A stretch of 64,000 nucleotides of DNA from Polytrichum commune (lineage: Eukaryota > Streptophyta > Polytrichopsida > Polytrichales > Polytrichaceae). The position numbers and the translations under genes were made by a program. The stretch lies in assembly GCA_950295325.1 (NCBI GenBank), contig OX485805.1, positions 53,096,758-53,160,757 of the forward strand, written 5' to 3'. Under the pieces are notes generated by a model, which saw only the letters and a list, made by a program, of their open reading frames with translations, did not search any database and was not told where the DNA came from. Every line of letters begins with the position of its first letter. The first letter of the stretch is position 1. Below are positions 23,842-49,977 of this stretch, piece by piece.

Positions 23842-24976
23842 CAGGGGTGTTTTTTCACAAGGTCCCTAACATGTCTAGGGACATGTTCATAAAAAAAAAA
23901 CATTTCCAGTGGACGGGTTCTTAGAAAATGAACCGGTTTTGGGACGTGTCAAATTCACTTTGGACGGGTTCTAAAAATAACATTTTTAAAATTAAAAAAT
24001 GGTACAAATATCAATTACGTTATGTCATATATGACATGTGAATATAAGCATAATGCAATCAAACCACTAATACCCAATCAAACTATCAATCTTGAAGTGC
24101 TTGATTCACCTGCATACATTAATTCATCAACCACAAAATTTAGAACCTTTTTAACATAATGTCAAAGATTACAATTGAAGGTAAACTTAGTAATTGAAAC
24201 TCACACATTGACCCAACAACTTACAAGCTCAACCCTGCAATTTGCTAGGGTTTAACTTGAATTGACAAAAATTTCCTGCACAGCCCTTGAATCTGCACTC
24301 AACCCACAACAAAAGAGAGGAATAAGACTCTCAAGATTTAGGATGCTAATGAATCGAACATATGCAACTGAAAGCTAAAGCAACTGAGAGACCAGTGAGA
24401 GATAACTTGATTGCAGTCGTCAAATGAACCGGTTGAGTTTGAGAAATCACCTGTTGAAGTTCAAGATTGGAGGAGAAGATTGTTCCAGCGGCACTCTTCA
24501 ACTTCTTGAATTCGAGTTAGTTTCAAATGAACCGGTTGAGTTTGAGAAAACACCTGTTGAAGTTCAAGATTGCAGGAGGAGATTGTTCCAGCGGCACTCT
24601 CCAACTTCTTGAATTCGAGTTAGTTTCAAATGAACCGGTTGAGTTTGAGTGACTGAGTCTAGTTCAGTTTCTCTGAACTAGTCTGTGGACAAACAGACAA
24701 AATGGGGCAGTGGCAAGTTGGCAAATTGGTAATTATAATAGAAAAAACAGAAATGAACGAAGATAGTAAGATACTATTGTTTCCAAGTGGCAAGTGCACC
24801 AATCACGTGCCGACATCTTTCGGATTATCTTTATCGATTTGTTTTTCCCTTTAACCTTTTCATGGACGGGTTGGTTTAGAAATTACCGGTTTTGGGACGG
24901 GTTGCAATTTTTTTTGCCTTTCAATTCGAGGTTTTGGGACGTGGACGGGTAAAAACTTTGTGAAAAAACAACCCTG
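23842..24976. mobile_element. hAT-type non-autonomous transposon, 1135 bp
   Basis: The left end CAGGGGTGTTTTTTCACAA and the right end (complement of CAGGGTTGTTTTTTCACAA) form the TIR, flanked by an exact 8-bp duplication, ctcatgct (23834-23841 and 24977-24984). CAGGG ends and an 8-bp duplication are hallmarks of hAT elements. Both subterminal zones carry repeats of ggacgggtt and ccggttttgggac, as expected for hAT transposase-binding sites. The interior holds a tandem repeat (24421-24650) and no transposase. Confidence 0.92.
24421..24652 (+). repeat. Tandem repeat inside the hAT element, period 102-103 bp
   Basis: 'caaatgaaccggttgagttt' starts at 24421, 24524 and 24626, giving two near-identical full units and a partial third. 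The period is not a multiple of three, which argues against the short open frame across it being coding. Confidence 0.9.
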
Positions 24977-28950: not shown

Positions 28951-29620
28951 TCGCTTCAAAACTCAACAAGGTCTGTTGTCCATTGTGGAGTGTGGTGAGC
29001 ATTTCAACCATGGTGGCCATGTTTACTGCTGGAGGAATGTCGGTAATCTTGTTTTGGAACCGTCAGGAAATGACATGCCTCCTTAAAAGGACTCACAGCA
29101 AATTTGCTAAAGTCCTTTTATCAGCTACGGAGGGGATTTATATGCATGACCATGACAATATTGGAACTTATTAATGTAAATTTATGGCAACGTGGATTCT
29201 GCAGGGCATATCACAAGAAACACTATATTCGGTATTTGGAGACTTTTTGTTGATTATGAGACTATATAAGGATGCACATTTCAAAATTGGACCAGTAATG
29301 ACGACTAAAAATCCCATATGTATAATGGTATGCTACTATTATTATACATAAAGGCATGGAAGTGAACAAAAATGTGAGCCATACATAAAAATAGTTGCGT
29401 ATGAAATGACAACTCGTTATGAATGGAAGGGAAGATGCGAAGAATGAATGGAAGTTGAATGAATTAATTGGGATTGAAATACAATTATAATGGAAATACC
29501 ATCAATGTCTTGAGTAACTTGGAATAGCATAGAAAGTAAGCACTTAAATATGTTCTACACCTAAGCCCATTTAGGGAGTCCATCCCACTAGTACGCTTCT
29601 AGTCACACTGGTCCGACCCA
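28951..29620. other. AT-rich non-coding stretch left of the gene-rich block
   Basis: No gene supported. Composition changes sharply at about 29630 from AT-rich to GC-rich, which may be the edge of the inserted block. No TIR or target duplication could be matched with the right side near 45.1-45.6 kb. Confidence 0.4.
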
Positions 29621-30600
29621 CTATTTTTTTTTTGCGGCTAAGTCCTTTTTTTTGGCGGCCTCCATGGCTCTAAAAATCTTAGGCCCATGACTGTATCCTT
29701 GTGTGTTGCCTGGACAGGAATATGTGTCGTTCTTGCATGTTTCAGGACGCGCTCCCGAATTGTACGAGGTGGTATTATAAGTAGAATGCGAGGGCGTTTG
29801 CGAAAGGGAACGTCTTGCGCTTCTCCGGAGGGCCAGACAACGATCGGACTCGGAAGATGCGGCCTTGAGGGCGTGCCTATCCAAGGAGGACGTGGAGGAG
29901 GGCCGGGCACCAAGCGAGCGGGTAGCCACCTGCGAAACAACGTCATAGGAAGATAAGAATAGGAATGGAGTGGGGAAAATAATGAGGGCGGTTTGGGATG
30001 GGCACTCGTAAAGAGAACGGCACGCAAACGGAAGACAAGGGAAGCAAAAGCGGGAAAGGGGTTTAGGGTTGAGGAGGGCACCTTGGCTTTGGGGACGTCC
30101 ATGCGGGGAACGGTGGGAACGAGGGGGGCGTCGACGGGAGCATCCGGAGCCGATGGAACTATTGTATTGGTGAGTGGCGGGGGGGAGTCGAGGCGTGGGG
30201 GGCTCACGATGGCGGAGGACGTTGCGGGGGGAGGAATGGAGTCGGCGGGGGAGGTGTGGCAACGGGGGCCTTCCATGCGGAGACGCCGGCTCGGCCTGCG
30301 ACGAGCACGCCGTCGTCCTTAGAGGGCGAGAGGTGCCCCAAACGAACGAGCGTCCGTTTCTCCTTGGAGAGGGGGGAGGGCGACGGGGCGTAGGCGCGGG
30401 CGCCAAGTGCGGGGGGCGGGTTGTTGACGACGCCGACGTCGCGGGAGTAATCCACGGCCGAGGCCGCGTCGACCGCCGAGAACTGGTAGAGGGATGGCAT
30501 TTGGAAGTCCGTGACGTCGCGGGAAGGGGAGGCAGGGGGCGAGAGGGGACGGGAAGGGCTGTCAACCACAGGGGCGTCGCATATGGGGGCAGACTATGGG
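29621..30600 (-). pseudogene. Proline-rich open stretch, probably a decayed or intron-bearing gene
   Basis: A GC-rich minus-strand stretch can be read as one product with frame changes. It starts near 30569 with FQMPSLYQFSAVDAASAVDYS, runs through Pro/Ala/Ser-rich sequence and changes frame in a C-rich run near 30220-30250. A likely intron ends at ttcgcag (about 29935), and the stretch ends in a Lys-rich tail (AAKKKDLAAKKK) near 29630. It follows the FCP1-like exon by about 140 bases on the same strand, so it may be the next gene or later exons of the same transcript. No domain is recognised and low-complexity composition makes the frame uncertain. Confidence 0.35.
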
Positions 30601-30707
30601 CAAGAACAACAACAACAACAACAATCACAACAACAAAAGACATCCAAAAACGAAGCAAGCATTAGTAAATGTGAACCACATGATACAAGCAAAGACATGG
30701 AGGCATT

Positions 30708-31475
30708 TCAAATCAATTTATTGAGTTTGGCGAGCCTCATGATGCTCTTGAATACATTATCACGGGGGCTTAAACCCACATTGCCTATGGGGTTGGACCT
30801 AACAAAAAATGGTATGCTACCGGCGTGGACAACAAACCTTCTAAGGTAAGGCGCTAGCGTATCGACCAAAAACGTGTCGTTTCTATCGCCGGTCCAAGTG
30901 GCGGGGAAGATGACGTTCCCCGGGGGGTTCAAGACGCTTTTGGTGGGGCTGTCGTCGACGAGGACGGTGTTCTCGGGGGTCGGCCACCACCCGTGGGGTA
31001 CCCCCTGCAGCCGGGGGATGCCCCGCCACAGTCTTGACCTCAGGACCTTCAGGAATTGTTGTCCTCCGCCACGACCGCCGAACTTTGGAACCGGCATACC
31101 CTTTTCGTCAAGCAATTCATCGCAATCCTCTTGGCCGAGGATGAGGCAAGGGCTCGGAAGATCGCGGAAGAGGAAGTCGACGATTGGCTCGGTGTTCTCC
31201 ATGACCATGGAGCTCCACACAATGACGTGAGCTACATCGAGCACCTCTCGAAGGAAGTCACGCAGGCCGGGACGGGCGCGAACAACCTTGCGGTTAATGA
31301 GAGTGTCGAACTCTCCGTCGTAGTCCCTTTCGTCGGGGTGACGGAAGGGACGGGTGGGGACCCGGGGGATGTGTTCGGTGTGACACAACACCCCGTTCAG
31401 GTCGAACACGACGAACGGTTTGTTTCGGGTAAGACGTCCACTGGTCGAGGGTTTCCGACCTATCTCCGGGGGATC
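30708..31475 (-). CDS. FCP1/SCP-like HAD-family phosphatase domain (last exon)
   Basis: The exon follows a splice acceptor (taatcacag, AG at 31477-31476) and stays open for 255 residues to TGA. Near residue 24 it carries KPFVVFDLNGVLCHT, the HAD motif I region. The nucleophile Asp is present, but the second Asp of the usual DxDx(T/V) is Asn. VIVWSSM is motif II, and VLVDDSPTK is motif III with the paired acidic residues; a FCP1-type C-terminal FLVDTLAPYLRRF follows. FCP1/SCP enzymes remove phosphate from the RNA polymerase II tail. The Asn substitution removes the usual general acid, so catalysis may be weak or lost; related plant proteins with DLNG are known to me. It has no internal stop. 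Whether it is its own gene or the 3' exon of the ParB-like gene upstream is unresolved: exon 33496-32038 ends in phase 2 and this one starts in phase 0. Confidence 0.75.
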   Translation of the reverse strand, partial: DPPEIGRKPSTSGRLTRNKPFVVFDLNGVLCHTEHIPRVPTRPFRHPDERDYDGEFDTLINRKVVRARPGLRDFLREVLDVAHVIVWSSMVMENTEPIVDFLFRDLPSPCLILGQEDCDELLDEKGMPVPKFGGRGGGQQFLKVLRSRLWRGIPRLQGVPHGWWPTPENTVLVDDSPTKSVLNPPGNVIFPATWTGDRNDTFLVDTLAPYLRRFVVHAGSIPFFVRSNPIGNVGLSPRDNVFKSIMRLAKLNKLI

Positions 31476-31591
31476 CTGTGATTAACAACTCGACTAGTTT
31501 AATTCTATGATCCAATAAAGAACATTGCAGTAAGGAAAAGACGATTATGCGAGGAAAATAGTGCAAGGAGAATGTGGTCAAGTGCAGACTT

Positions 31592-31689
31592 GCGAATGAG
31601 CGTTCGTGAATGAAGGCTGGGGTGGCGCATCATTTACGAACGCTCGTTCGTGAGCGTGGATAGAAGCACATGTACGAACGCTCGTTCGT
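31592..31689. repeat. Palindrome copies between the FCP1-like exon and the upstream exon (3)
   Basis: acgaacg-ct-cgttcgt occurs at 31636-31651 and 31674-31689, and a decayed copy (gcgaatg-ag-cgttcgt) at 31592-31607. They lie in the 562-bp interval between the splice donor at 32037 and the acceptor at 31476. Confidence 0.95.
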
Positions 31690-31990
31690 GAAGGAGGGTG
31701 AAAGTGGGCGCGAAAGTGTAATGATGCACATGAACATACATAATACAAAATGCGATACGATACAATAAGTTTGGGAGATGCGACGCAGAGATCATCTGCT
31801 GATATATTAATTCCGTGAATATTTACAATTTGTCTCACGTGATAAATTTTCACAGTTTCCTATGGCAAATTCATGCCGTGTTCTACAAAATTTATCGGGC
31901 TAAGGGTCCACGTAGAGAAGGGTCCTCGCACTCCTCGTGATGCTGATGGAGAGGAACCGCCAAGAACACAACGCGCATGGGTTAGTGGTT

Positions 31991-32111
31991 ACGAACGCGC
32001 GTTCGTCAAATGAGTGGTATTCTCAGAGGAGAGTTACCTCGTCATCGGGGGGAGGGGCAGCGGCGCTGGACCGAGCAGTTCCTCCTCTTCGATTAACGAA
32101 CGCGCGTTCGT
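31991..32111. repeat. Palindrome copies at the 3' end of the ParB-like gene (2)
   Basis: acgaacg-cg-cgttcgt at 31991-32006 (just beyond the donor) and 32096-32111 (inside the open frame, read there as TNARS). Confidence 0.95.
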
Positions 32112-32489
32112 AATCCCCATTTGGCCAGCCGCCTCTGTCTCCATGGCGTCTGTGGCACGCTCCGACTGTGACGCCTGGGTCTGCACAATGTGGTCCGCGT
32201 CGTCGTCGTCGTCTCCGCCCAGGTTGAGAGTGTCCATGCGGACATCCTCCATCTCCGCGGATGGATGCCGTTCCAGGTCAGGGCTCTCAACGTCCATTCC
32301 CTGGACAGCTGCCGCGTCATTGGGGCTCCCCTGCGTTTCCTCCACAATGACCATGTCAGTGTGTTGCGCAAATTCATCGCCCTGCCTATGCACTACCCTC
32401 GGGACGACTGTCAAAGAGGCGGTGGCAGTGACTGAGGCCAGTCCTACCCTTGGAGGGGGAGGGGTTAGGACTGCCGGACCTGAAGATTC

Positions 32490-32505
32490 ACGAACGCGCG
32501 TTCGT
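32490..32505. repeat. Palindrome copy inside coding exon C
   Basis: acgaacg-cg-cgttcgt lies within the open frame, where it reads RTRVR. The palindrome can therefore sit in coding sequence without closing the frame. Confidence 0.95.
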
Positions 32506-33528
32506 AAATCTTCGTCCTCGCGTATGGCAGCCCTTATCGCATCGTGGGAGTTGGCGGGGGTGGCAGTCATTTGAGGGGGCGGAGGACTCCCAGCTGGCGT
32601 TGGGTGTGGTGCTAGTGGGTGCGAAGGTCCTCCGAGGAACAGGCCTGGAGGGGGGGTATGGAGGGGTATCCTCCGGGGAAGGGGTAAGGCTGTTGTGCTG
32701 GCGCCGAGAAGCTCTGCATATTTCTGAGCATCTCAAATATGGCGTCCGTCTTTGCTGCGGACTCCTGCAGCGCCTCCTGCATGCGGGCCATATTTCTTGC
32801 ACTCTCCTCTGCCGCAGCCGCCATTTCCTCCTTCATTTTCTGCTCTAGCTTGGCATTCAGCTCGGCAACAGTCAGCGCCTCCTCCTTCACCCGCTTGTTT
32901 TTGTCGTAATCAACCCCTAGCTCCGCCATGATGTCCATGTCGCCCTCGTCCTCGTCGGACACCTCGATGATTGCTCCTTCAGGCAACTCCACATACGGAG
33001 TCTTCTTCATTCTCCTCCTTGTGTTCCGGAAGAGGTCCAAGGATGGACGCGAGCGTTGGTCGAGGAGGTCGAGGGTCTCCATCCTCGGAACGACGACGGG
33101 CCTTGGAGATACTGAAGTCGAGCAGCCTCCAGGCGTGCCGAAGGGTTCCGCACCCGACACTCTAGCAGGGAGGACATCCTGGGTGGTCCCAGCCGACGAT
33201 CCTGTATAGCCCCCCGGTGTCCCTTGGGGGTCAGAAGGATGACCCGTTGGCGCCAAAATCCGTAAAGGAGTGATGTTGAAGGACTGCAGGATGGCGTCCA
33301 CGTCTACGTCTACGGAAGGGGCGGGCTCGTCATCGTCTGTCTCCATGCCCGGCATGCCTTCGTCGACGGGCATGCTGAAATCCTCCCTAGGGACACCCAT
33401 GTCGTGCAGGTCCATTGTGAAAGCCTTCACCCTGTGGACTTGGTATTCCTCCTCGTCCTGGGCGTCGATGTAGCTATTTACGCACAACCCCAGCATCTGT
33501 AGCAACGATTGCAATCATGTCAGCATAT

Positions 33529-33629
33529 ACGAACGCGCGTTCGTAAACAAAAACATCAACATCAACCCACAGAAAGACATTGGCAACTATTAACATCTAG
33601 CTCAATGAACATTACGAACGAGCGTTCGT
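33529..33629. repeat. Palindrome copies in intron B-C (2)
   Basis: 33529-33544 (centre CG) and 33614-33629 (centre AG) both lie inside the 152-bp intron 33648-33497. Confidence 0.95.
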
Positions 33630-35011
33630 AAATCGAAGGAGTGCTTACCATGGCCGCGTACATAAACTTGCTGCCTCCAAAGATGTTGTAGACAGTCTCT
33701 CCACTGATTGCCAAGCTCTGCAACACTGACACGTAGAACTCCAACCTGAGCTCCAATGCGGGGAAAATAGTGTATAGTGTCTCCTGCAGCAGTTCCTTGG
33801 GAGGGGGTGAGGAATGCTGTATATCTTCTTGAAAATATTGTTTGCCTTCACAGGCGCTCTCCCATGCCTGAGTGCATTGTATGTCAAGAAGATCAGGCTG
33901 ATAGCTCCCACCTGCTTGTTGCCCCTGGCTTCGTTGATGGCCACGATCCCTTCTGTTTTTGCGGGCACGTAGGTGCTGTGGTAGATGCTGTATTCAAACT
34001 TGATGGTATTCTCGTACAGCTCCGTCACAATGACTAGTTTCTCTTGTTCCACTATCCAAAGCCATACGTGAGGCTCCCTCATGGTAGGCGATTTGTAGTC
34101 TTCAAACTTTGCTATGAAAGGGTTATAGAAGGGCAAATCCTTTCCCCCTTGCCTCGCACCTCCTGGGATCCCCCTAAAATCAATCAGGGCAAATGGGCAA
34201 CCCCTGCGGTCCTCCCTCACCTCGGCCTTGCTGATGGTGCCGTCCCACTTAGAAAATGTGGTCCTCTCCAGCCCGGTGGTTACCAAACAAAATCTGGCCA
34301 CTCCCTCGAATGTGGCCCTTCGCTTCCTCTCCAAAAACTTTATATACAACTCCACCTCCTGGGGATCTGTCTCTGTTTTCTTGGTCCGCTTGTTCCCCTT
34401 GAGTTTCAAAACGGAGGCGTGTTCCTTAACTAGACTACGCATGGAAGAGCCGTTGATGTTGTAGCCGACCTTGAACTCTTTCCATCCAGCCCAGTTGATG
34501 TCTCCGTCGGCCTGGAAGAGTTTGTACTCTGGGACGAGTGTGCCCAACTCCCTCATCGCGTTAGTCTTCAATTTGCGATGCTCGCACCACTCCTTGATGG
34601 AGTACGTTCCGGGCCTATGCTTTGGCCTCTTCAAAAAAATCTTCAGGTAGGGGATTGTTCTACCGACGGTGTTCCCAAGAGCATGCACTGCACATCTCTG
34701 CAATTCGGACTCCGTCAACCCCTGAAGCGGCCTGAAAAATTCCCTCAGCAGCGGAGGGGCTTCCCCACTCTTCTCCTTGTTATATTTTTCTTCAGTGTCG
34801 GGGTTGACGAGATCCCCCGCACTGTGAGCATCAAAAAACTGGGTCCACAAATCCCAGGTGTCTATGTTGCAACAAATGAGCCGGAGTTCACCCTTCAGCT
34901 CCAGCACGGACTTCGTTGACGTGGACTTCATGTCGATGGAAGAGAATTTATCTACCATCGCATCGCAAAACGCCTGCATTAGAAGAAAATAATGTCAGCG
35001 GGCAACCAAAT

Positions 35012-35084
35012 ACGAACGCACGTTCGTAAATAAAATGATCAAGAATGTTGAAAAGGAACCTGAGAATTACGAACGCTCGTTCGT
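35012..35084. repeat. Palindrome copies in intron A-B (2)
   Basis: 35012-35027 (centre CA) and 35069-35084 (centre CT) both lie inside the 119-bp intron 35092-34974. Confidence 0.95.
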
Positions 35085-36420
35085 AAACTTACCTTCCATT
35101 GTGGAGACTAGTTTTTCGCATTCTTCCTCTCCTTTGGTGGGCACCCATGTGCAACCCACACGTCTCTCGCAGCCACTATGTTCGCTGCCCACGACGCTTC
35201 AAATGCCTTGATTTTATTTCCGGATTTCAGAAATGTCGAAATTTTCTGGAGCTTGTCCCAGTCGTCAGACCAGACCAGGAACGCTTTCCAGTAGCGGAGG
35301 TCCCCCTTGAGCTCATGCTGGAAGTTATCATCCTTTAGAATGATCTGCGAGGCCTCCAAGCTGTGCTGTCCATCAATAATCCAGAACTCCCCGTTCTGGA
35401 TTCGTGCCCAATCCTTTTCCGTGGGATGGGAAGTGAAACCTTTTGGCATAACACACACTGTTTGCCTATCCCACTTCACATTGTTCATCAAGTTATTTAT
35501 TTGCCACTTCACACCCCCGCTTTCACGTGACCTCACCACCCACTTGTTCGGGGATTTCTCGCATCTGAAGCAGTCCACGTTGAAGGTGAAGTGCCGTCCC
35601 ATGGGCCAGCAATTCTTCGAGTAATTGTTGAAGTCTCGAAGGATACGAGTCGCCTTTGCAGCATCAGGGTTTTCTCCCTTTTTCAAAGGAGTCGGCATGA
35701 CAGGCGGCGAGTTGACCTCCGCGGTCTCCGTTACACCTGACTTCTCCATGTCATCCCTAGTTCTTTTAGATGGCGTGGAGTGTCTGCTTGGCCCTTCTGT
35801 CAATCTGCTACCTGTTGGCACTGGCCGCGGCGCACTTCTGGAACCTCCTGCTCTAGATGCAGTAGGTTTTTTTGGACTCTTTTTCTTCTTGTTAGCCTCG
35901 GCGACGGCACTGTTATACTTGGAAATGTTCAGGGCCAGTGCAGTGAGCTTCCTGGCAGTCCAATGTTGGCTGAGGCTGTACTTCGTGAAGAGGTTAATCA
36001 GGTCAAAATGCTTTGCATCCTCTACAATATTATTCTGTGCGTATGTATGGGAGAAAGGGTGCCTCCTGAAGTCCAGCAGGAGGTTGATGTTGTCTTTTTT
36101 GTTTTTCATTTCCAAAATGACAAAATCACCCTGTGCCTCTATAGACTCTATCCCCCAGGTCTTCATCTGCACCCACTGCTCAGGCTGGTCTGGCCTTGTC
36201 TCCAACTCGTATGTGAACCTAAGGACGAACATCCCGTCATCACTTTTCTCGGGGAGCGCCGTCCACTCCCCGATGAAGTCATCTTTGGGGATGTAGTTGT
36301 CGTTGCCATTGTCATCTGTCACTGACTCCGGAAGGCGATCCAACTGTACTGCGAACATCTCTATTGCGCTCTTGCCTGGTCTAGCCATCTGCAATATAAG
36401 ACACTTTCAGAATGGCATTT

Positions 36421-37103
36421 ACGAACGCGCGTTCGTATTTCTGGTTGCTTTGATGTTCATATGGTGCAATCAAAAGGTACGGGGATCGTTTTTGAGAATA
36501 ATTTTTCTATTAGTTATTGGATGTACATATTTATGTCCATGCCTCTTTGTGGATTTACGAACGCGCGTTCGTAAATCCTGGGTTTGTTTTCATCCCTGTT
36601 TACGAACGACCGTTCGTAAATTTTGGATATTGATTTGTGATTACTGTGTACTTACGAACGGACGTTCGCAATTACATGATGTTCCTTATTTGGTCAATTA
36701 CGAACGCGCGTTCGTAAATCCTGGATTTGTTTTAAACCCTGTTTACGAACGACCGTTCGTAAATTTTGGATATTTATTTGTGATTACTGTGTACTTACGA
36801 ACGGACGTTCGCAATTACATGATGTTCCTTATTTGGTCAATTACGAACGTGCGTTCGTAAATCCGGGGTTTGTTTTCATCCCTGTTTACGAACGACCGTT
36901 CGTAAATTTTGGATATTGATGTGTGATTACTGTGTACTTATGAACGGACGTTCGCAATTACATGATGTTCCTTATTTGGTCAATTACGAACGCACGTTCG
37001 CAAATGTATAGGGTGAGTGCGTATTTTACGAACGCACGTTCGTAAAAGTAGAGGGGTTGGTGTATTAGATGTATACACGGCACATTTACGAACGATCGTT
37101 CGT
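36421..37103. promoter_or_regulatory. Palindrome array upstream of the minus-strand gene (13 copies, 143-bp tandem unit)
   Basis: ACGAACG-NN-CGTTCGT copies start at 36421, 36557, 36602, 36654, 36700, 36745, 36797, 36843, 36888, 36940, 36986, 37028 and 37088. From 36557 to 36986 they sit in a tandem repeat of exact 143-bp period with three palindromes per unit (centres mostly CG/TG, AC, GA). Most are extended to TTACGAACG...CGTTCGTAA. The array begins 33 bases upstream of the first readable exon. Position and dyad symmetry suggest a site bound by a dimeric protein; this is inference. Confidence 0.9.
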
Positions 37104-37974
37104 AAATGTGGTCATGTGTGGGTATGATAATAAATGCTTTGTCCGTACATGAACGTATACGTATATATACGAATACGTATGTATGGGTTTATGAAAGTTG
37201 CGATCAACATAGGTTGGATTTCTGCCTGCAACTCTTGATCAGAATGATGAAACACAAAGTGCAATATGGAATCACAACAAAATTTTAGATTCAGTGATTG
37301 GGAATTCATAATGAAGAGGAAAGTCCTAATTCATTCAAAACATGCCAAAGCTCATAATGCATAAAACAAAACACATGTAATTCAACAAAGAAGAATTTCA
37401 GATTGCAAAGAAGTGTTTTGAAAAGGAAAGTTGTACTCACATTGAATTGTTGCACACACAAAACCTGCTGCCTGCTACTCAGAAACCAGAAACCTCACAA
37501 ATGGACTGACTTCACTTTCAAATGCAATCTTCTACCCTCGCTCCTTTCTCACACTCTCAAGCCTTCAGAACTTATATACAAATCCTACAAATATTCTGAT
37601 GTACACACAACTCACAAGCCCTTAAAACTCAAGTTTTCTGGAACTCTCAAGTTTTTTGAAACACTCAACCTCTCAAGCTTTCTAAAACTGTAAACCTCTC
37701 AAGATTTCTAAAACTCTCAACCTCTCAAGCTTTCTAAAACTCTCACCCTCTCAAGTGATCCTAATTTCAAGCTTCTGACAATGCGAGTCAAAGAAAACAT
37801 ATAATATGCGGCGCCACAAACGGCAAGGGCTTCGCCACACCTAAGCTCTCCCCTCCTCCTCTGGTCCAAATGACAAATGAGGAGGAAAGGAAGAGGCGCG
37901 GGGAGGTACCCGGCACCGCTAGGGTTTCCTGGCGGCGGCCACGTACGTGGCTGATGGCCACTGGCCAGGGCTGG

Positions 37975-38115
37975 GAGGGGGGAGGGGATGGGGATGGGGA
38001 GGGGATGGGGATGAGGATGGGGATGATGGGGGTGGGGGATGGGGGATGGGGATGGGGAGGGATGAGGGATGAGGGAATAGCATGGGGGGGATGAGGGAAT
38101 AGCATGGGGAGATGG
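37975..38115 (+). repeat. G-rich purine minisatellite (GGGGATGGGGATG type)
   Basis: At least 15 runs of three or more G separated by A/T form a nearly pure purine strand. Such sequence can form G-quadruplexes on the plus strand. Confidence 0.85.
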
Positions 38116-38279
38116 ATGCATGAGGGTTTAGGAAATAAGAAATACGAAATGGTGGGAGCTTAGTTCGGGGACATGAATTTTACATTCCCCTTAATACCTC
38201 TACAGTTGGATTCCTTGTAAACATATTTTAGAAAAGTATGTTCAGTTAATTTGTACAACACAATGCATGTCATTTAGTA

Positions 38280-39465
38280 GGTTTTCGATGAAGAATCCAC
38301 CCCAATGTATATATGGTGTTTTGCAAGATAGAGTTTTCATGAACCACACATCCTTAAAGTTGTTCAATGGTTCCTCAAACAAATATGACATACATAAAGG
38401 ATGCATTTTAAATTGTGGACAGGGGCTATCTGATTCTCCTCTAGAAGTGGGGGAAAATTCAATTTTCAATACGTTGTCATTAATTTCATGAGGTGTTAGC
38501 TTGACCCACCCTTAATATGATATTTAGTGTTAGATACTCTAAATACAAACGCATAGTACACTAAGTATCACTAACGATATAAATCCTAAGCCCACAAACC
38601 ACCTAGACAACTTTCACAAACCCTATACGCTAACCCCAAACCCTAAACCCTAACCCCTAAACCCTACATCTTTTTATCTTACCAACCTTTCTTATATAAG
38701 GCCATGTTGTGGTCTATGGGCATCATGTCAAAGTGGTAAACCAATGTTGGTTCGATTGGAAATTGCTTTATGTGGTTCATAGCAACTATAATAATCTAGA
38801 CTCATGCGAATAATTGTCATTTTGAGATAAAACATTGGCTTAATAGGTGAAGAGGGAAATTTAGAATGCTAGCCCTTTCACCTTAGTATATAGTTTTGAG
38901 TGCAATTTGATCACACAATGCATACTTAATCTTATTATAACATGAATGGTTTAAGACTTTGGTTTAAATCAACAGTTTAAACTATGGTCATGCACATACT
39001 TCTTGTAGGATGCAAATAATATAAACAGATAATTGTAAGTGTATACTAATGTATGCACCATTCCAAATTAGTTATCCATTTCCACACCATGGTGGAGGAT
39101 AAATGAATTTCCAATAGGAGGTGAAGTCATTTAATTAGTTGTCGACTTGAACTAACAAACGAATACTAGTGCCATCAACTTTTAATTTCACCAATGATCA
39201 ATTGCATTTAAACTTATATTAGTTCATAATATGGTCCGATGTTTGGCGAGCCTCGAGTGTAGGGGGTGGATTCAAATGAAGAATCCACCCGCAAGGATGT
39301 GTATATGGTGTTTTAAAATATAAAATTTTCATGGACAATATATCTTTCAAGGTGTTCAATGGTTCCTTAAATAAATATTTATCGGATAAAGGACTCAATT
39401 TCAAATTGTGGCGAGGGCTATCCTAAACCTTTACAAGAGGTGGAGGAAAATTTATTTCCCATAGG
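38280..39465 (+). repeat. Diverged direct repeat pair (about 190 bp each)
   Basis: 38280-38470 and 39270-39465 share 'atgaagaatccaccc', 'tatatggtgtttt', 'gttcaatggttcct' and 'aaattgtgg' in the same order about 985 bp apart. Confidence 0.7.
38630..38666 (-). repeat. Interstitial telomere-like repeat
   Basis: Several copies of ccctaaa/aacccta in a row, with errors. This is the plant-type TTTAGGG motif on the opposite strand. Confidence 0.75.
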
Positions 39466-40412
39466 ATGTCAAACACATATTAATAATTGTAAGTGTGACT
39501 TCACGTAGGTATGGTTTTAATTCTTATCATTATCGTATGCACCGTTCCAAAGTGATTGATCATTTCCAATCATGCCATTTTAATTCATTATTTTCAAACC
39601 TAGTGTTACATTTGAATGAAGACCTTATCTACATATACTGGGTAAGATTGGTTCAAAATGTCATCAATCTACCTAGTACAAGCCATAATGGATTAAGCGA
39701 CTTTTTATTGGTATTCATGCACTTGATGACCATATTACGGGCATTTTTTTAATGTGAATCATATGATACCTACAATTTTAGGGGCTTCCACAACATGTTC
39801 TTAGCCACTCTTACCTCATTGTGTGTGTGAATATGTATTACCCTAAACCCTTCATCACTTTATTAGGTATAATCAATCGTCAATTAACTTGGACTTCACA
39901 CCTTAGTCGCAAATCATTTAAAACTCAATGTTAACCATCAACCTATATAGACATTATGTATCTAATATTATATATATGTGTATATATAATATATAATATG
40001 AAATTTATATAGACATAAAAATATAGATATATATTCTCGTGAGACCTTGGTAACAACTAAGGTGTGCGACCGATTGACATATTTACAATATGTTGCGTGC
40101 ATGCAAGACATGCTCCATACATAATGCTATTTATATATATCCGCATGGATGGAATGGCATATTGTTAGGTCAAAATAGGCGGCGGGAATCCTCTTTTTAA
40201 ATAGCATCCAAGGGATTTTGAACCATCAGGGGGAAGGTACTTAAAGCTCTTCCCCCCACATCAGAGCTCTTTTCTGCGGCACATCCAAGTGTGCGCTCCA
40301 CAGACCTGACTGGAACGAGCTCAAACCATTTTCTTGTGCGCCCACCCTATACCTCCCAGGTACACTATAGTCTGCACATACCCGTATATACCGCCGCAAA
40401 TACCGGACCTTT

Positions 40413-41609
40413 ACGAACGCACGTTCGTAAAGATGAGTTGGTAGCATATGCACAATAGGCTCAGACACGTGATGTGAGTGGTTTACGAACGTGCGTTCGT
40501 AAACTGAGCATTAGACATACTCCACGCTGATTTACGTATATGTAGTCAGAGGCATGAAAGTTGTCAATGATATACGAACGTGCGTTCGTAAGTAGAGCAT
40601 TAGACATACTTCATGTTGATTTAATTATATGTAGTCAGAGGCATGAAAATTGTCGATGACATACGAACGTGCGTTCGTATATATTTCCTTCAAGATACAG
40701 GGCACCTAACTTCGTGTGATGTGATTGGTTTACGAACGTGCGTTCGTAAATTGAGCATTAGACATACTCCATATTGATTTAATTATATGTAGTCAGAGAC
40801 ATGAAAATTGTCGATGACATACGAACGTGCGTTCGTATATATTTCCTTCCAGATACAGGGCACCTAACATCGTGTGATGTGATTGGTTTACGAACGTGCG
40901 TTCGTAAGTAGAGCATTAGACATACTCTATGTTGATTTAATTATATGTAGTCAGAGGCATGAAAATTGTCGATGACATACGAACGTGCGTTCGTATATAT
41001 TTCCTTCCAGATACAGGGCACCTAATTTCGTGTGATGTGATTGGTTTACGAACGTGCGTTCGTAAGTAGAGCATTAGACATACTCCACGTTGATTTACTT
41101 ATATGTAGTCAGAGGCATGAAAATTGTCAATGATATACGAACGTGCGTTCGTATTTATTTCTTTCGAGATACAGTCTCACCTAAGTTCTTGTGATGCGAG
41201 TTGTTTGCGAACGTGCGTTCGTAAGTAGATCATTGTACATAGATCCACGTTGACCTACTTATAGGTAGTCGTAGGTACTAAAATGTATCAATGATACACG
41301 AACGTGCATTCGTATATTTTCCTTCCAACCTTCCAACCCACATAGGCTCCCGTGAATCTGTGATGTCCAACTGAACATCTGATGGTGGGTTATTCACGAA
41401 CGTGCGTTCATAAATATCAATTGATATTATTTTGCAATTATCCAGAAACAGCCGTTAGTTTGAACACATGCCTCCAAGTCCTTGGCTATGGATATCTTTT
41501 CTGTCGAGTCAATAGTTTTTACAAACAAGGTCACGGCTAGAACATATTATTTATCGTTCCTATGGATACGTCCATATATTTCGGCTAGGACTTACGAACG
41601 ATCGTTCGT
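40413..41609. promoter_or_regulatory. Palindrome array upstream of the DUF7869 gene (14 copies, 158-bp tandem unit)
   Basis: Copies start at 40413, 40485, 40574, 40663, 40732, 40821, 40890, 40979, 41048, 41137, 41207, 41298, 41396 and 41594. From 40574 to 41137 spacings alternate 89 and 69 bp, i.e. a 158-bp unit with two palindromes, nearly all with centre TG. Copies at 41298 and 41396 have arm substitutions; half-sites persist near 41645 and 41832. The array ends about 380 bp before the ATG of the plus-strand gene. Confidence 0.9.
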
Positions 41610-41991
41610 ATACATACATCCCTCAGTTTGGGCTCTGTCTTGGGGTCGGTCGTTCGCATGCACACACCCGTCAAAGACATGCCCCTCAATTGCTTTACTG
41701 CATCATTATAATGATGCAAGTGCATTTTGGGTGCTCATAATCATTGCACGTTGCTTATCCATTTTACAATTGCATGCCGTTGTCCATTGCCGTGTAGATC
41801 CCATGTTGTATTTCCATGTCATGGCGTTGTTTTCGAAAGCACGTTCGTCTACATATGTGAGGTCCCCCAACGATGCCGCGAGAGTTCTTTGTGATTTTTG
41901 AGCCATATACCTACACAGCTCTCGTATTCGCTTTTGTGTGCATTGCTGTGCTTGTTTTGTTTGTCATTAATTATTGGTTTGCTTAGGTTTT

Positions 41992-44900
41992 ATGGCGCTG
42001 CCCGCGGCATATAGTTCATTGGAGTTTCCCACAATTGCTTCGTCCTCCGATGGTAACTGTGAACTTTCTTCCCCGTCGGCGGGTAGTAATGGTATGCCTA
42101 ACGTGATGGGGGTGTTTGTGGATGCATCCTCCCATGAATCTTTGGAAGTGCACGAACAATCTCTACATTCCAGGGATGACCACGATGACATTCCTTTGTG
42201 TGCCGGTTTCGGGAGGGAGCAATGGGTTGGCCTTGATGTCGTCCTACACAACGACCTTGGTGTCCCTGTGGCAGATGGCATATGTAGAAATTCCGATCCC
42301 CGTGATTGTGTGGATGCCAACCCCCTTGGTCCTAGCGATGTTGGTGTGTGCATCTTGAATTCATTGCTTCCGCTTGAGGTCCCGGTGACATGGAGATTCT
42401 CCTTGCGTCGATGGCCTCTTTGTCGGGTTCTCCATGACGGAGTGAGCTTGTTGGACCATGAGCGGCGCCATAAGCAAACGCAATTAGCTTTGTTGGTCAA
42501 CATACGTCCTCGTAAAGGCCTGCGCAAATATGATTCTAACCGTGTGCCTCGAGGAGATAAAAAACGTAGACGGGATTGCATATTGGGAGACGAATCTATC
42601 CGTCTTGTGTCCGCCAAGGACTATTGCGATCGGAAATGTTGCCAATTTTTCTCGCGGGAGAAAATTAAGTCCCTACGTCAAGAGATGTGGCTTGCGGATT
42701 TCCGGATGAGATCGGCAAAGAAACTCAAGGTCCACAGAAATGTGCACATTGACACCCATGGGCATAAGGTGGTCACACTTGAGAATGTGGAAGTGTGTTG
42801 TACCGCGTGGTATACCATCCATGCCGTTTCAAAGTCTGACTTTTATAGGTTTCAAAAGTATTCATCGTTGGGTCGGCGCTCTCGATTTCATGGAAATTCG
42901 GGCACAAAGAAACCCAGGGAGGCTACACTCCAAGCCTCTGCGACACTTTCCACCATCATTGTCCCATTGGCTGATGCAATGCCCCACAAAACGAGAACAT
43001 TGTCGTCAGGGGAGAAAGTTGTACAAATGGTTTTGCCCATGGGAACAAAATGGAAGAACATTTTAACGGACATTAACGAAGTGGGTCACATAGCGGGATG
43101 TGGGCCCATTTCTTTGTCCAAGTTGAATGTGATTAAAAACCAACAGTTTGCTGAATACATTTTGAAGAGACCTGGGGACAAGTTCGCTAGGTGTACGACG
43201 TGTGAAAAATACAAAGGTCTTCGGGACGCCCACCCCATAGGCACCGAATCACACTCCAAACACCAAGGGAAATATATTGAACATGTCAACAACCAAGAGG
43301 CTCACCGTCAAGATTACTACAAGAACCGTGCTCTATCCATAATGAGGCCTACAGAGGTTCTAACAATCATCCATGATAAAATGGACCATGCAAAGACCGC
43401 ATGCCCTTGTTATGCACGGAAAATAAAGGCCACGGATGGACTCTTCAAGTTGCCAGTAGTTGTCACAGGTTTGTATGAAATCACAAATATGTGTTCAAAT
43501 TATCCAATTTTACTAGGTATGTTTGCGTTAGGTTTCAACTTCATACATCCGTTTAGGGTTGTTGTTGTTTTCATTCATGCATCGTTTGTTTCTTTCCCAG
43601 GGATGATTGCCCACGGACATGAAGACGTAAAGTATGCCCATTATGGTTTGGATTTTTACCCTGGCGATGCTAACCACACGGTGGGATCATTTGCAAAACT
43701 CTTGCGCGATCTGGAGAAGCCACCGGTACATTCATCACGTGCATTGTTTGATGGTTGTGGAACGACACCCCTTTATGAAGCACTGCTTGAGGGGAAGGAG
43801 GTTTGTATGTCGTCATTGCCGGAGCCACCCGGAGAACCTCTTTGTGCGAAACCTTTGTCTCCAACTCTCCACGTTCAACTTGATAATTGTGCGAAGGACA
43901 ACAAATGTCGATACGTATTTTGTTTTTGGTCCTTGCTTGTGGCGAAAGGAATCTTCAAGGAGGTGTTTGTGTCTTTCTTGATGGTGGGACACACACACGA
44001 TGACATTGATGCGTCTTTCGGACGGTGGAGCATGAAGTTGCATGAAGAAGATTTTCCAACCATACCACTTCTTATGAAATCGTATATGGATTTGGACCAT
44101 ATGCCGGTAATTCCGCACATGATTGAGGAAGTACCAGATTTCAAGGCCTTCATCAAGCCATACATGTTGAAGGGAGGGGACCATTTGGTGGGACATACCA
44201 AAGCACAACAATTCCGATTCTATATAAGGGATGATGGTCTCCCGGCCATGCAATTTAAGCTTTTGTGCACATCTCCTAATTAGGGCCCGGATGATGGTAT
44301 ACTCGTATGGCGTCAAGACAATGATGGGAAATGTTTGCTCCCGGATGGGGATCCAAAGCCTTGCAAACCCGACCCCATGAGGAATGGGCCGGAAATCATT
44401 AAAGGCATATCCGGATTCATTGAATATTGGAAAGAGTTGTGTGAGGAGGACATCACTAGACGTGTTAGAGATACTCATGAATCTTTGATTGCGTATTGGG
44501 ATCGCATTCGCTCGGCCCTAATGACACTTGGTGGCGACACCCGTACAACTTTAACACAAGGATTTTGGCCACAAAGCCGTTTAACGGTTGTCGAGTCCGA
44601 CACCATGTTTTTTAGCAATGGAGACGTTCGTGAAGAGTTCGCAATGGACGAGCATTACGTTGGCCCTGCCCGCAATTGACCGGCACCGTCGTTTCGTGTA
44701 GGTGTTGATTGCCATGAAGGTTATTTGGTCCTCGTACGAGCAGGGGATGAGGAGCATCCTAAGCCAATTTGGTTGGTGAAAGCATTGTCTTCACCCAATT
44801 TTGTTCGAACTAGCCCCAACTTTCGTCAAATTGAGGTGGAATATTGTCGTCCAAGCACTAAAGACCAAAACGTGCTACGCATTTATTTAGGTTGGGACAC

Positions 44901-45120
44901 CAAAAAGAATTTTAAGTGGACAGTGGACTCAGCGTACACACCGGTTTGGATAAACACGGATACTATACTTTGTGCTTGAAAGCCGCGGAAAGGTTCCAAA
45001 ACAGAAACAATGACCATCCCCCAAAAACATATAGATTTTGCCAAAGACAACTTGGCACGTATTGCAGCTGCGGTGAATGACGCCGAGAATGGATATGAAG
45101 CGGAAGATGGAGATGTGTAA
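41992..45120 (+). pseudogene. DUF7869-family protein, probably transposon-encoded, with in-frame stops
   Basis: The frame runs from ATG 41992, soon after a ttgcttag acceptor-like site that suggests a 5'-UTR intron, to TAA at 45118-45120. Removing one intron (43469-43600, gtttgt...cccag, 132 bp) leaves 999 codons in one frame. The N-terminus is acidic and disordered; a Cys-rich DYCDRKCC block starts near residue 210. HGNSG and FARCTTCEK, TGMIAHGHED near residue 492, and QLDNCAKDNKCRYVF followed by VGHTHDDIDASFGRW near residue 620 define the DUF7869 family, widespread in eukaryotic mobile-element-like genes; an RNase-H-like transposase role is suspected, not shown. Three stops interrupt the frame (TAG 44281, TGA 44677, TGA 44977), yet coding character continues after each, so decay is recent or the mutations are few. 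It is divergent from the minus-strand gene and preceded by the 158-bp palindrome array. Confidence 0.8.
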
Positions 45121-46258
45121 ACATAACATATTAGGTGGGAGTTAATGGTGAAAAACATGGGTGCTTAGTAGACTTGGTTTTTATTAGACTTAGTGGACTT
45201 GACACACTCCATTGTGGTATACGTTTGGGATGTGCCATCCAAATAATTCATAAGAGCCTTACTTATGGGATGCGCACCCCAAACTCTATAATGACCTAAA
45301 CCATTTGTTTTTTTAGAGTCGATTGTTATTTTCCACAAGGAGCTTACGTTTTCATTTTAAACGAAATTCCCTATTTTTAGTAATAAGAATATGTTTTACG
45401 TGCGAATTTCTAAATCGTCATGTTCTTGATGTTCCCAATATTCCGTATGCCCACAATATTGGCATCCCAAACTATGGGCATATTTTATTTTGAGACTTTC
45501 AAAAGTCTCCGATTAACGAATATAGTGTTAAGAGTCTAGTCACACAAGAGGGTGTGGAGACTTTGGCTTCAATAGGTGCGGAGCCAGAAACATTACCATC
45601 ACAGGGCCCCATTCAGAGTCCCGATTTTTGAGCACTTCAGAGGTCTTGCTCAACTGCCCTAACAAAGGGCCCGAGTGACCATCCTTTCCAGCCACGTTTT
45701 AATGTACCTTGATGAGTACATGCAACTCTGTGCCTGATGCTTTCTTCCTCCATAATTTACACAGTCGAGCTTTGCTTTTTCAGAAGTGATTTGCAGTACA
45801 GCTTGCACTTCATCAAAACTGATTTAGTTAGAACATCAAGGCCCACCCAGTTATGAGATTCAAATTACTGAGGATTGTATCCCGCACAGCATTGTGCCTA
45901 ACATGCATTTGCTGAATATTGAGATATTTAACTGTACTAAAACTCAAATATTTTGGATAATCTTGTGCCATAATTGATATCACTATCACAAGTCTTGCAA
46001 TCCATTTTCATGAATTTTTGAAAACTTGACAAACATCATTTGTAAGCTCATTTCTCCTGTGCTTCTGTTGTGCAATCGTCAAAATTACCCTCCATCCACA
46101 CCATGTCACCATCTTGTTGACAGCTTTCTAAATGGTTTAAAGAAAGGCTTTCATTTAAGTGATTCATAGTTTGCAAGGTCTTAAACATAACAAACAATCA
46201 GATCAAATTCCTAAACTTGAGAAAAAGATGAGAGAAAGTATAATGATAAACTTTGAAA
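45121..46258. other. Non-coding stretch right of the gene-rich block
   Basis: No gene. About 45560-45730 is a diverged piece of RF1 (gagccagaaacattaccatcac, aaagggcccgagtgaccatc). A short direct repeat (tttgggatgtgccatcc / atgggatgcgcacccc) lies at 45228-45282 and could mark an element edge, but this is weak. Confidence 0.4.
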
Positions 46259-47235: not shown

Positions 47236-49977
47236 CGTATTATTTTAAAAGAAAAAAGATGGTAGTTTGAGACTATGCGTGGATTATAGAGGGCTAAATA
47301 AGTCTACCATCAAGAACAAATATCCTTTGCCCATATTTGATGAATTGGTTGATCGATTGAGTGGAGCGAAGAAGTTTTCAAAAATTGATTTGAGGACTGG
47401 ATATAATCGAATTAGAATCAAAGAGAATGACATTCAATTTGGAAAAAACGGTTTTTCGTAGTCGTTTTGGTCACTATGAATATTTGATAATGCCTTTTGG
47501 ACTTACCAATGCGGCTGCCACATTTATGAATATCGTGAATACTATATAATTTAGAAAATATCTAAGAGTCTTCACCCTTGTTTTTATGGATGACATATTA
47601 GAGTTTTCCAAAAATGAGGAGGAACATAAGGAATACCTTGAGAAGGTGTTTGATGTTTTGAGGAGACATAAATTATATGCTAAAAGATTAAGTGTCAAAT
47701 TTTTCGTACTCAGATTGAATACCTTGGACATGAGTTGTTTAAAGAAGGTGCCTCCGATGATCCTAAAAAGATCGAGATTGTGGTTAGGTGGCTCATGCCA
47801 TAGGATAAGATTGAGGTTAGATGCTTTATGGGGTTGGCTACTTACATGAGAAAGTATGTAAGGGACTTTGCCAAGATTTTAGCCCCCATAATGGATTTGT
47901 TAAAAGGCAATTTTGAAATAATCACTTGGACTAGTGATTGCCATATAAGCTTTGAGACTTTGAAGAAAACTTTGACAGAAGTTCCAGTCTTGAGGATCTT
48001 GGATCCCTTGAAATGCGGGTTGGTCTTGTGCACATATGCCACTGATATGACTATAAGTGCTATCCTAATGCAAGAAGGCATGGTAATTGCTTATGAATCC
48101 AAAAAACTAAGCAATACCGCGTTGAATTATCCGGTTCAAGAGAGAGAATTGTTAGCGATAATTCATGCATTAGAAATTAGGCGTCACTATTTATTAGGTA
48201 GTGAATTTAAAATTGAGACTGATCATTAGTCATTACAATATTTGATCAATCAATCTAATCTTAATCGTAAACAAAGTCGTTGGATAGAATTCATGCAAGA
48301 ATTCAATTTTGAAATCCAATATGTTAAGGGCAAAAAAAATGTTGTAGCCGACTCGTTGTTACGTAGACCATTTCTAAACGTAGTCTCAATAGTGAAAGAA
48401 ACTATGTTTGACAACATTAAGGGATTTTATAAGAATGATGCGTTTTTCACTATTTTTTTTGAGAGTTTGTCAAAAGAATATGGAATTCAAGAGGAAATTG
48501 ATAAATTTTCTACCTATGTTTTGGATGCGGGTTATTTAAATTACAAGTCTAGAATTTGTAATCTAGAGGTGGAGGATCATAAAAACAGCGACGCTATCTT
48601 GTGAGCGGTGAGCAGTGAGCGGCGAGCGGTGAGCAGAAAATTTGAAATTTTTGAAAAAAAATCAGAATATTTGACTTAATTCTTACACCGAGTAGGACTC
48701 TTCGTATAGTTTCTTTACAAATATGACTAAAAGTAGATGGTACGTTTAACTATGGATGGTGCCTATAACTGTGGAGTGGAAGAAATTATAAACTTTTGAA
48801 AAAACCATCCATAAAAAGAAATGGAAGAAAACGAAGAAAAAAAATTTAGAAAAAAAACTTTAAAATTTGAAGAATAAAAATTCAAATTTTCTGCTCACGG
48901 CTCACTGCTCACCGCTCACCGCTCACAAGATAGCATTCCTGGAGTCTATTTCAATGGATTTCATTGTGGATCTTTCTAGAACTTAAAAAAGCTTTGATAG
49001 CATTTTTGTGGTTGTCGATAGACTAAGTAAGATGGCTTGATTTATACCTACCACTACAACTGTGACAACTTCGGGAGTAGCTGAGTTGTTTTTAAAAGAA
49101 ATATTTGTGAATTATGGGTTGCCGCAAGAAATAATTTGTGACAGAGGTAAAAAATTCGTGAGTGAATTTTGGAAATCTTTATTCAAATTGTATAGTACCA
49201 AAATTAGTATGAATTCTACATATCATTCGAAAACCGATGGACAAATTGAGAGAACCAATAAGAGTCTTGAAGACATGCTTAGAATGTACGTTGGAAAAAG
49301 ACAATAATCTTGGGATAAGTGGTTGTACTTGATACAATTTGCTTGTAATTAACAAGAGCATAGTAGCATAGGGATGAGTCCATTTTATGTGTTAATATAT
49401 GGTCAGGAATGTAGAATTCCTTAGCAACTCCTAACTCTAAAATTAAAAGTTTGAATCAAATGATTCAAGAGATGCAACATAGTGTATTGGAATAAGCTAC
49501 GCAATGTATGCAAGGTGCACAAGAGAGATCTAAATTTTATGCCAATAAGAGAATGAGGGTGAGAGAGTTTGAGGTTGGCCAAAAGGTATTTTTGAAAGTA
49601 GCGCCTAAACGCTCTAGATTAAAAAACATGGGAGGTCAAGAAAATTGTCTCCTAGATTTTGCGGTCCATTTCAAATTCTAAAGAGGATTGGTCAAGTGGC
49701 GTATGCATTAGATTTACCTAAGGACTGGAAAATTTATAATGTGTTCCACGTAAGTTTGTTAAGAAGATATGTGTCCGATCCCAATCATATACTTCAAGAT
49801 TTACATCAAGTAGTTCATGAGGGGGAGATGTTGGCTGAACCTGAAAGAATTTTGCAGGTTGATTTGCAACACCTCAGGAATAGGTCATTCAAGAGATTTC
49901 TTGTTAAATGGAAAGACTATCTAGAGGATGGAGTATCATGGGAGTTAGAAAATAAATTCAAGATTCTTGCCTGAATT
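47236..49977 (+). pseudogene. Ty3/gypsy chromovirus pol remnant (RT, RNase H, integrase, chromodomain)
   Basis: Blocks appear in the Ty3/gypsy order. Reverse transcriptase is at 47260-47730 ([12 protein letters not shown], then MPFGLTNAA, then FMDDIL, the catalytic box). RNase H is at 47990-48375 (ends KKNVVADSL). The integrase core is at 48940-49410 (SMDFIVDL, VVVDRLSKMA, TDGQIERTN). Integrase C-terminus and chromodomain are at 49645-49974 (GPFQILKRIG; FKRFLVKWKDYLEDGVSWE). The chromodomain places it among chromoviruses, which target heterochromatin by binding modified histone H3. Gag, protease and the integrase zinc finger are missing; a 342-bp MITE sits where the last would be. Several stops and at least two frameshifts make it inactive. 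A TAG replaces the usual Gln in TDHQSL, and a TGA sits in SKMA-FIP. Confidence 0.93.
48593..48934. mobile_element. Foldback MITE inserted in the gypsy element
   Basis: The outer 54 bp on each side are inverted repeats with only a few mismatches, starting gctatcttgtgagcggtgag and ending ctcacaagatagc. The TIRs are built of short gtgagc(a/g)-type direct repeats, and the 234-bp middle is AT-rich. No clean target duplication is visible and some gypsy coding (integrase zinc finger) is absent at the site, so insertion was accompanied by a deletion or the flanks have decayed. A second copy remnant is at about 9829. Confidence 0.85.

Follow-up and report, generated by a model that had tools for sequence, protein, structure and literature searches.

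What recognizes a short palindrome that recurs throughout a single gene block, and to what end, is the question raised by a 64-kb window (64,000 nucleotides, the whole stretch analysed) of the Polytrichum commune genome (assembly GCA_950295325.1, contig OX485805.1, positions 53,096,758 to 53,160,757). The sequence under study is a 7-2-7 dyad of 16 bp, ACGAACG-NN-CGTTCGT, with the exact form ACGAACGNNCGTTCGT. It lies within a DNA transposon, and it is probably, although with considerable room for doubt, the cis recognition site of a ParB-methyltransferase-like protein encoded by the transposon itself, which would mark the element's own copies and counter their silencing. Neither the element, defined by its terminal inverted repeats (TIRs) and target site duplication (TSD), nor this protein figured in the first-pass annotation of the window; both were found in the present follow-up.

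The window contains 29 exact copies of ACGAACGNNCGTTCGT. With up to three mismatches there are 45 raw matches, compared with a mean of 0.66 and a maximum of 4 among 100 shuffled sequences; once shifted overlaps of the motif were dropped, 39 non-overlapping dyads remained (29 exact, seven with one mismatch and three with two). The first-pass annotation had counted about 37 copies between 31592 and 41609, and 37 dyads with up to two mismatches are indeed found there. It had also placed all copies in that interval, but two more are present at 30342 (one mismatch) and 41833 (two mismatches), inside the same transposon (29219–45529) as all the others. Pooling of the dyads of the window and of four other regions (175 dyads) confirmed the free centre, with 15 of the 16 possible dinucleotides present and TA alone missing. 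The arms are fixed as proposed (95–99% at each position), but the site is longer than 7-2-7, since TTT and AAA flanks are conserved at 81–89%. The full dyad is thus TTT-ACGAACG-NN-CGTTCGT-AAA; the fourth flank base is weaker, and positions beyond it carry at most 0.18 bit.

The transposon (Table 1) has TIR arms of 29 bp, the right arm being 90% complementary to the left. Both copies for which the two ends are available (2/2) have the TIRs and TSD of a class II TIR transposon, namely the window copy (AAGA/AAGA) and a shorter relative, E4 (TATG/TATG). The window copy is decayed: exons a and b are each broken in frame, and the DUF7869 frame contains a stop. Membership of CACTA/EnSpm, considered from the CACTA-like start of the TIR, was rejected: the ends read AACAC...GTGTT and are accompanied by a 4-bp duplication, and the match of the plus-strand frame was to DUF7869, not to any CACTA transposase model. 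The length of the TSD suggests membership of Sola1, whose superfamily has 4-bp TSDs; the fit is weak because other superfamilies also have them.

Within the element, most dyads lie in promoter arrays and introns, as had been annotated, but two (32096–32111 and 32490–32505) fall in coding exon c, where they are translated in frame as TNARS and LRTRVRE. Another copy, E3, has the same peptides, so the dyad is kept where it dictates amino acids. The remaining eight of the ten dispersed dyads are in the three introns between exons a–d: introns a and b have one pair apiece, near donor and acceptor, and the third intron of the window copy has four. Tandem repeats of 143 and 158 bp make up the arrays. 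Array A is probably situated in an intron of the 5' untranslated region, and an acceptor-like cttag follows array B just 5' of the ATG of the DUF7869 frame. The motif-free centre between the two arrays probably holds divergent promoters; it also contains an internal repeat of 82 bp, together with repeats that are G-rich or of CTCTCAAG. The last 3.7 kb of the element on the right, starting at 41849, are free of dyads, and the dyads nearest to the two ends are 1.1 kb and 3.7 kb away, none being subterminal.

The dyad is not private to one gene block. A search of the 408-Mb genome (64 contigs) gave 5602 exact copies of ACGAACG-NN-CGTTCGT, against four of the reversed pattern used as a control. 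Among the matches listed (the first 100 of the 5602, from the first 2.5 Mb of contig C1), the copies form five clusters, all of which match this transposon family; an even scatter over the genome with no link to these genes was not seen. In the lineage of the window (lineage 1), the symmetrical dyads of the form ACGxxCG, to which the tally is confined, read AA at the variable positions in 378 of 378 cases (the window, E1–E4 and 28 loci, with L019 and L021 left out as repeats of the window and E1). Exon a has at least 97 copies in the genome, many of them without stops and many very similar to one another; the copy numbers of exon a are lower bounds because 97 of 1074 first-look candidates were scored for lineage 1, and 95 of 1048 for its relative in the second lineage described below. 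Copy E2 (L012–L014) is split by other repeats, and open reading frames starting LTPPIEV and LMALPLCLL recur in E2 and E3.

The relative E4 (L017 and L018, C1:636000–655999) is 9.5 kb long, has the same TIR and is about 75% identical to the window copy where the two align. Its gene content is limited to short DUF7869 and NIF remnants, and neither exon a nor exon b has a match in it. It carries 33 exact dyads, and the 20 kb fetched contain 44 when up to three mismatches are allowed. Retention of the arrays without the gene suggests that they are used by proteins made elsewhere, although trans use cannot be proved from a single copy.

Constraint on the arms was compared with that on other sequence in 30 lineage-1 loci, arranged in three groups, by counting changes per aligned site (cell). 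At non-CpG sites, changes were seen in 33 of 2282 arm cells, 2680 of 75507 other non-coding cells and 593 of 34477 exon cells. Non-CpG arm sites therefore change at 0.4 times the rate of other non-coding sites (Fisher p 2.6e-9), and the arms are better conserved than what surrounds them; the Fisher values are only a guide, because copies share ancestry and the cells are not independent. Taken group by group, the rates in arms and in non-coding sequence are 1.2% and 4.2%, 1.5% and 1.7%, and 1.6% and 5.6%; they are nearly equal in one group, and misalignment may inflate the non-coding rate of group G86, which mixes copies 65–99% alike. CpG changed to TG or CA in 69 of 1520 arm cells, 167 of 2356 other non-coding cells (p 0.001) and 100 of 1880 exon cells (Fisher p 0.30). 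This reduction relative to non-coding sequence is smaller than that at non-CpG arm sites. Overall, the aligned sequences indicate roughly equal constraint on the arms and on coding sequence. The protection of arm CpGs proposed in the first-pass annotation was not borne out, since these CpGs change at about the exon rate; they decay about three times faster than other arm sites, and a special escape from methylation is therefore not indicated.

The element encodes two transcription units on opposite strands. The plus-strand DUF7869 protein is presumed to be the transposase; its homologues (32 proteins) have no informative names, and a literature search on DUF7869 of open-licence PMC papers, the scope of all text searches here, found nothing. 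On the minus strand, E3 is open across four exons with GT-AG introns in phase 0. The alternative of separate minus-strand genes was rejected, as these junctions allow E3 to be read as one predicted four-exon gene. A fifth, proline-rich open frame (~29.6–30.6 kb) is preceded by an acceptor-like site but was left uncounted as an exon because no donor was seen by eye.

The structural model of exon a contains a ParB/Srx fold, and that of exon b an amino-methyltransferase fold (Beta-class/MT-A70). The methyltransferase catalytic motif [DNS]PP[YFW] is present in none of 40 exon b homologues, all 40 of which have DF(R/C) at that place. The GxxR-type arginine belongs to the cytidine triphosphate pocket of ParB/Noc proteins. 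This canonical motif is absent from the 21 exon a sequences that cover its position (DGQHS in 19, GGQHS in one and DGQHT in one; six of the 27 sequences do not cover it). No helix-turn-helix match following the ParB-like domain appeared in the second-look fold tables, which is not evidence of absence. Sequence searches of the PDB, made with exon a and also with both alignments, returned nothing significant, and none of 38 pattern matches to exon a in viral contigs was confirmed. Pfam scans of the window exons, the 40 exon b homologues and the open exons of E3 and homologues gave no DUF1985 or DUF287, and none of the six open frames scanned gave a ParA-like match.

A second lineage of the element provides the clearest link between protein and dyad. 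In metagenomic homologues, the reading frames of exons a and b run on past the donor sites into the introns, where the motif is spelt out as amino acids. Lineage-1 proteins spell ACGAACG in this way, while several proteins of lineage 2 spell ACGGACG-NN-CGTCCGT. With the homologues split at 60% identity and motif types counted by rule, the 50 proteins above the threshold gave 23 of AAC type, none of GAC type, eight ambiguous and 19 with no motif; the 29 proteins below it (38–58% identical) gave seven of GAC type, none of AAC type, two of another form, two ambiguous and 18 with none. These counts are not independent, because exon a and exon b proteins can share contigs; P0003, returned by both searches, was counted once, under exon a. 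The GAC-type read-through predicted that the P. commune genome itself might contain a second palindrome, and ACGGACG-NN-CGTCCGT was then found there in 1394 copies, against one of the control.

The lineage-2 element E5 is of the same kind as the window copy. Its TIR is 92.6% identical to that of the window over 54 bp, and its proteins are diverged (identity of 43% for exon a, 54% for exon b, 62% for NIF, and 62% over 113 residues for DUF7869). Its 13 exact dyads are all of the ACGGACG form, none being ACGAACG; like those of the window, they are grouped in two arrays or sit immediately within introns. Symmetrical ACGxxCG dyads of lineage 2 read GA in 44 of 46 cases from seven loci, with one AA each in L053 and L054; eight further dyads are asymmetric. 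The inspected lineage-2 dyads keep the TTT/AAA flanks, and the lineages therefore differ by one base pair per arm. A third lineage with ACGNCCG-NN-CGGNCGT, predicted from LRPRGRK in P0051 and P0058, was rejected, as the genome holds 29 copies against seven of the control. Of these places, 27 read ACGGCCG, and 22 of the 29 lie no more than 2.6 kb from an exon a listed for lineage 2 (e.g. C1:62557940–62558073). ACGGCCG is therefore a local variant that affects one dyad, or a few, in elements of lineage 2. The variant ACGGCCG-NN-CGGCCGT probably explains the read-through of P0051 and P0058.

The dimer-type site tied to DUF7869 genes, as proposed in the first-pass annotation, is thus supported, and it is most likely the site of an element-encoded protein. 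The preferred binder is the multi-exon minus-strand protein, with its predicted PH/FERM-F3, ParB/Noc-type, methyltransferase (without the usual catalytic motif) and FCP1-like parts. A dimer of this protein would contact both fixed arms, with no preference at the centre. From sites upstream of both genes, in three introns and in one exon, it could act over much of the element from several entry points, so that both genes would be kept expressed despite host silencing, and it would act in trans on gene-poor relatives that retain the arrays. Binding by this protein rather than by the DUF7869 protein, its dimerization and the anti-silencing outcome are what we infer from these data. Several points limit this assignment: the sequence-level match to ParB is weak (E 0.035); the ParB and methyltransferase assignments derive from models; confinement of the dyad to the transposon family, as far as the search was run, is observed at 100 of the 5602 places; and the DUF7869 protein co-diverges between the lineages as well, so that it stays a rival binder.

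That rival, in which the dyads are sites of the DUF7869 transposase or a partner for synapsis or excision, in the manner of Spm TnpA, accounts for the co-occurrence of dyads with DUF7869 genes, for their retention in the gene-poor copy and for the divergence of the DUF7869 protein. We consider it rather unlikely, as no dyad is subterminal, the TIR is nearly constant across lineages in which the dyad has switched, and the sites lie in introns and upstream arrays. The minus-strand protein might instead be an enzymatically active N6A/N4C methyltransferase and place a self mark on the palindrome or close to it. The modelled fold and a published proposal for a similar protein, that of Ectocarpus Sola1 (main text of PMC12477816), favour such an activity, which the replacement of [DNS]PP[YFW] by DF(R/C) in all 40 exon b homologues makes unlikely.

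Short symmetrical sites upstream of genes could also be bound by a host protein that the transposon exploits, be it a transcription factor, an insulator or a replication protein. This is improbable: none of the 100 matches listed lies outside the transposon family, and the sites differ between two lineages that share a genome, which one host factor does not readily explain. The palindrome could alternatively work in RNA, as an intron hairpin with a 9-bp stem and a 4-base loop that affects splicing or stability, and the pairs of dyads that introns a and b hold within their splice sites would suit it. There is, however, little covariation of the arms within a lineage (378 exact copies, and two of 22 two-mismatch copies compensated), and the arrays persist in the gene-poor copy, which leaves a role in RNA very improbable. 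Least credible is passive spread by tandem turnover and recent amplification with no function. The arrays are tandem repeats, many copies are very similar and the arms of one group are barely better kept than non-coding sequence, but the slower non-CpG change of the arms over the three groups (from non-independent cells), the sharing of arms by dyads at unlike spacings with different sequence between them, and the element-wide switch of the arms in lineage 2 all speak against it.

The proposed recognition of the dyad by the minus-strand protein finds its best functional parallel in VANC, as the first-pass annotation had suggested. VANDAL transposons are Mutator-type elements. In the passages cited, VANDAL21/VANC is an Arabidopsis anti-silencing system with an element-encoded, trans-acting protein (PMC5735166, PMC10398659); its private motif is found in introns and, upstream, in tandem repeats, with the motif of VANC21 differing from that of VANC6 (PMC5735166). 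The placement of the motif and its difference between related families are alike here; unlike the present protein, VANC has DUF1985/DUF287, and its YAGTATTAY is not an extended dyad. Spm TnpA sites cluster near the element ends; TnpA, also named in that annotation, is a poorer parallel because no dyad is subterminal here.

ParB and Noc bind a 16-bp palindrome (parS or the Noc-binding site). The modelled ParB/Noc-type domain and the 16-bp palindromic site resemble this system, from which the absent arginine motif, the lack of a ParA-like match in the six scanned frames and the setting in a transposon with thousands of sites set the element apart. A ParB-like domain fused to an adenine methylase is described for bacterial Bce_0392 in the part of PMC5512222 cited; the present protein differs in its extra domains, introns and replaced catalytic motif. 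Closer in setting is Sola1-1_Ec32 of Ectocarpus, also a giant DNA transposon with an accessory gene opposite the transposase that encodes ParB-like and N4C/N6A methyltransferase domains. According to the main text of PMC12477816, other algal transposons carry such genes, and the authors propose that the proteins bind and modify their own transposon; no target is named in the passages cited, and the main text mentions no palindrome. Here, by contrast, the protein is multi-exon and includes parts that are PH-like and FCP1-like, the usual catalytic motif is absent, and there is a candidate cis site that varies with lineage. Text searches with six exact dyad sequences returned no paper, and no such palindrome is named in the titles or abstracts from related literature searches.

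The novel points are a candidate target that takes two lineage-matched forms within one genome, the absent catalytic motif and the added domains. A candidate target in thousands of copies and two lineage-matched versions makes the protein–DNA code testable by exchange of one base pair per arm. If the preferred reading is true, this would be, after VANC, a second, independently built system of sequence-specific self-recognition by transposons, from which sequence-specific tools for the epigenome might be derived; the data suggest that each family would mark its own copies with a private address, which would help to explain how elements recognize themselves. Only tentatively, and with more doubt than belief, can this be extended to a captured bacterial ParB-methylase that serves as a self-recognition clamp, loading at parS-like palindromes, spreading and excluding silencing, with protein and palindrome switched together (ACGAACG/ACGGACG). 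Such a clamp would be a parABS-like device re-used against silencing in a eukaryotic nucleus, comparable to VirB against H-NS.

Table 1. Coordinates of the transposon, its dyads and its coding regions in the window
Feature	Position	Strand	Remarks
Complete DNA transposon	29219..45529		16,311 bp; TIR ends and 4-bp TSD
Left TSD	29215..29218		AAGA; identical to 45530–45533
Right TSD	45530..45533		AAGA; matches left copy
Left TIR	29219..29247	+	AACACTATATTCG...; alignments of E3 and E4 stop at 29218–29219
Right TIR	45501..45529	-	alignments of E1, E2 and E4 stop at 45529
Motif array A	36421..37103		13 dyads (up to two mismatches); directly upstream of exon a
Motif array B	40413..41609		14 dyads (up to one mismatch); directly upstream of DUF7869 frame
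Ten dispersed dyads	31592..35084		31592, 31636, 31674, 31991, 32096, 32490, 33529, 33614, 35012, 35069
Motif-free centre between arrays	37104..40412		3.2–3.3 kb also in E1, E2 and E3 (spacing of exact dyads)
DUF7869 (PF25273) frame	41992..44283	+	E 1.3e-38; interrupted at 44281
Exon a	35093..36388	-	predicted PH/FERM-F3-like and ParB/Noc-like domains, DGQHS motif; stop near end in window copy
Exon b	33649..34973	-	helical half and predicted amino-methyltransferase-like half; frame-broken in window, open in E3
Exon c	32038..33496	-	acidic/proline-rich; two in-frame dyads
Exon d	30708..31475	-	NIF/FCP1-like phosphatase domain (PF03031)

The NIF/FCP1-like domain of exon d, of the RNA polymerase II C-terminal domain phosphatase family, is a late exon in both lineages (11898–12668 in E5), with 62% identity between them. 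The consensus of the NIF/FCP1 family is DxD, and the domain reads DLN at that position. Outside the element, at 24420–24649 and 48586–48941, the window contains a direct repeat of 103 bp, in which a third copy begins in addition to two full ones, and an inverted repeat of 66 bp (88%).

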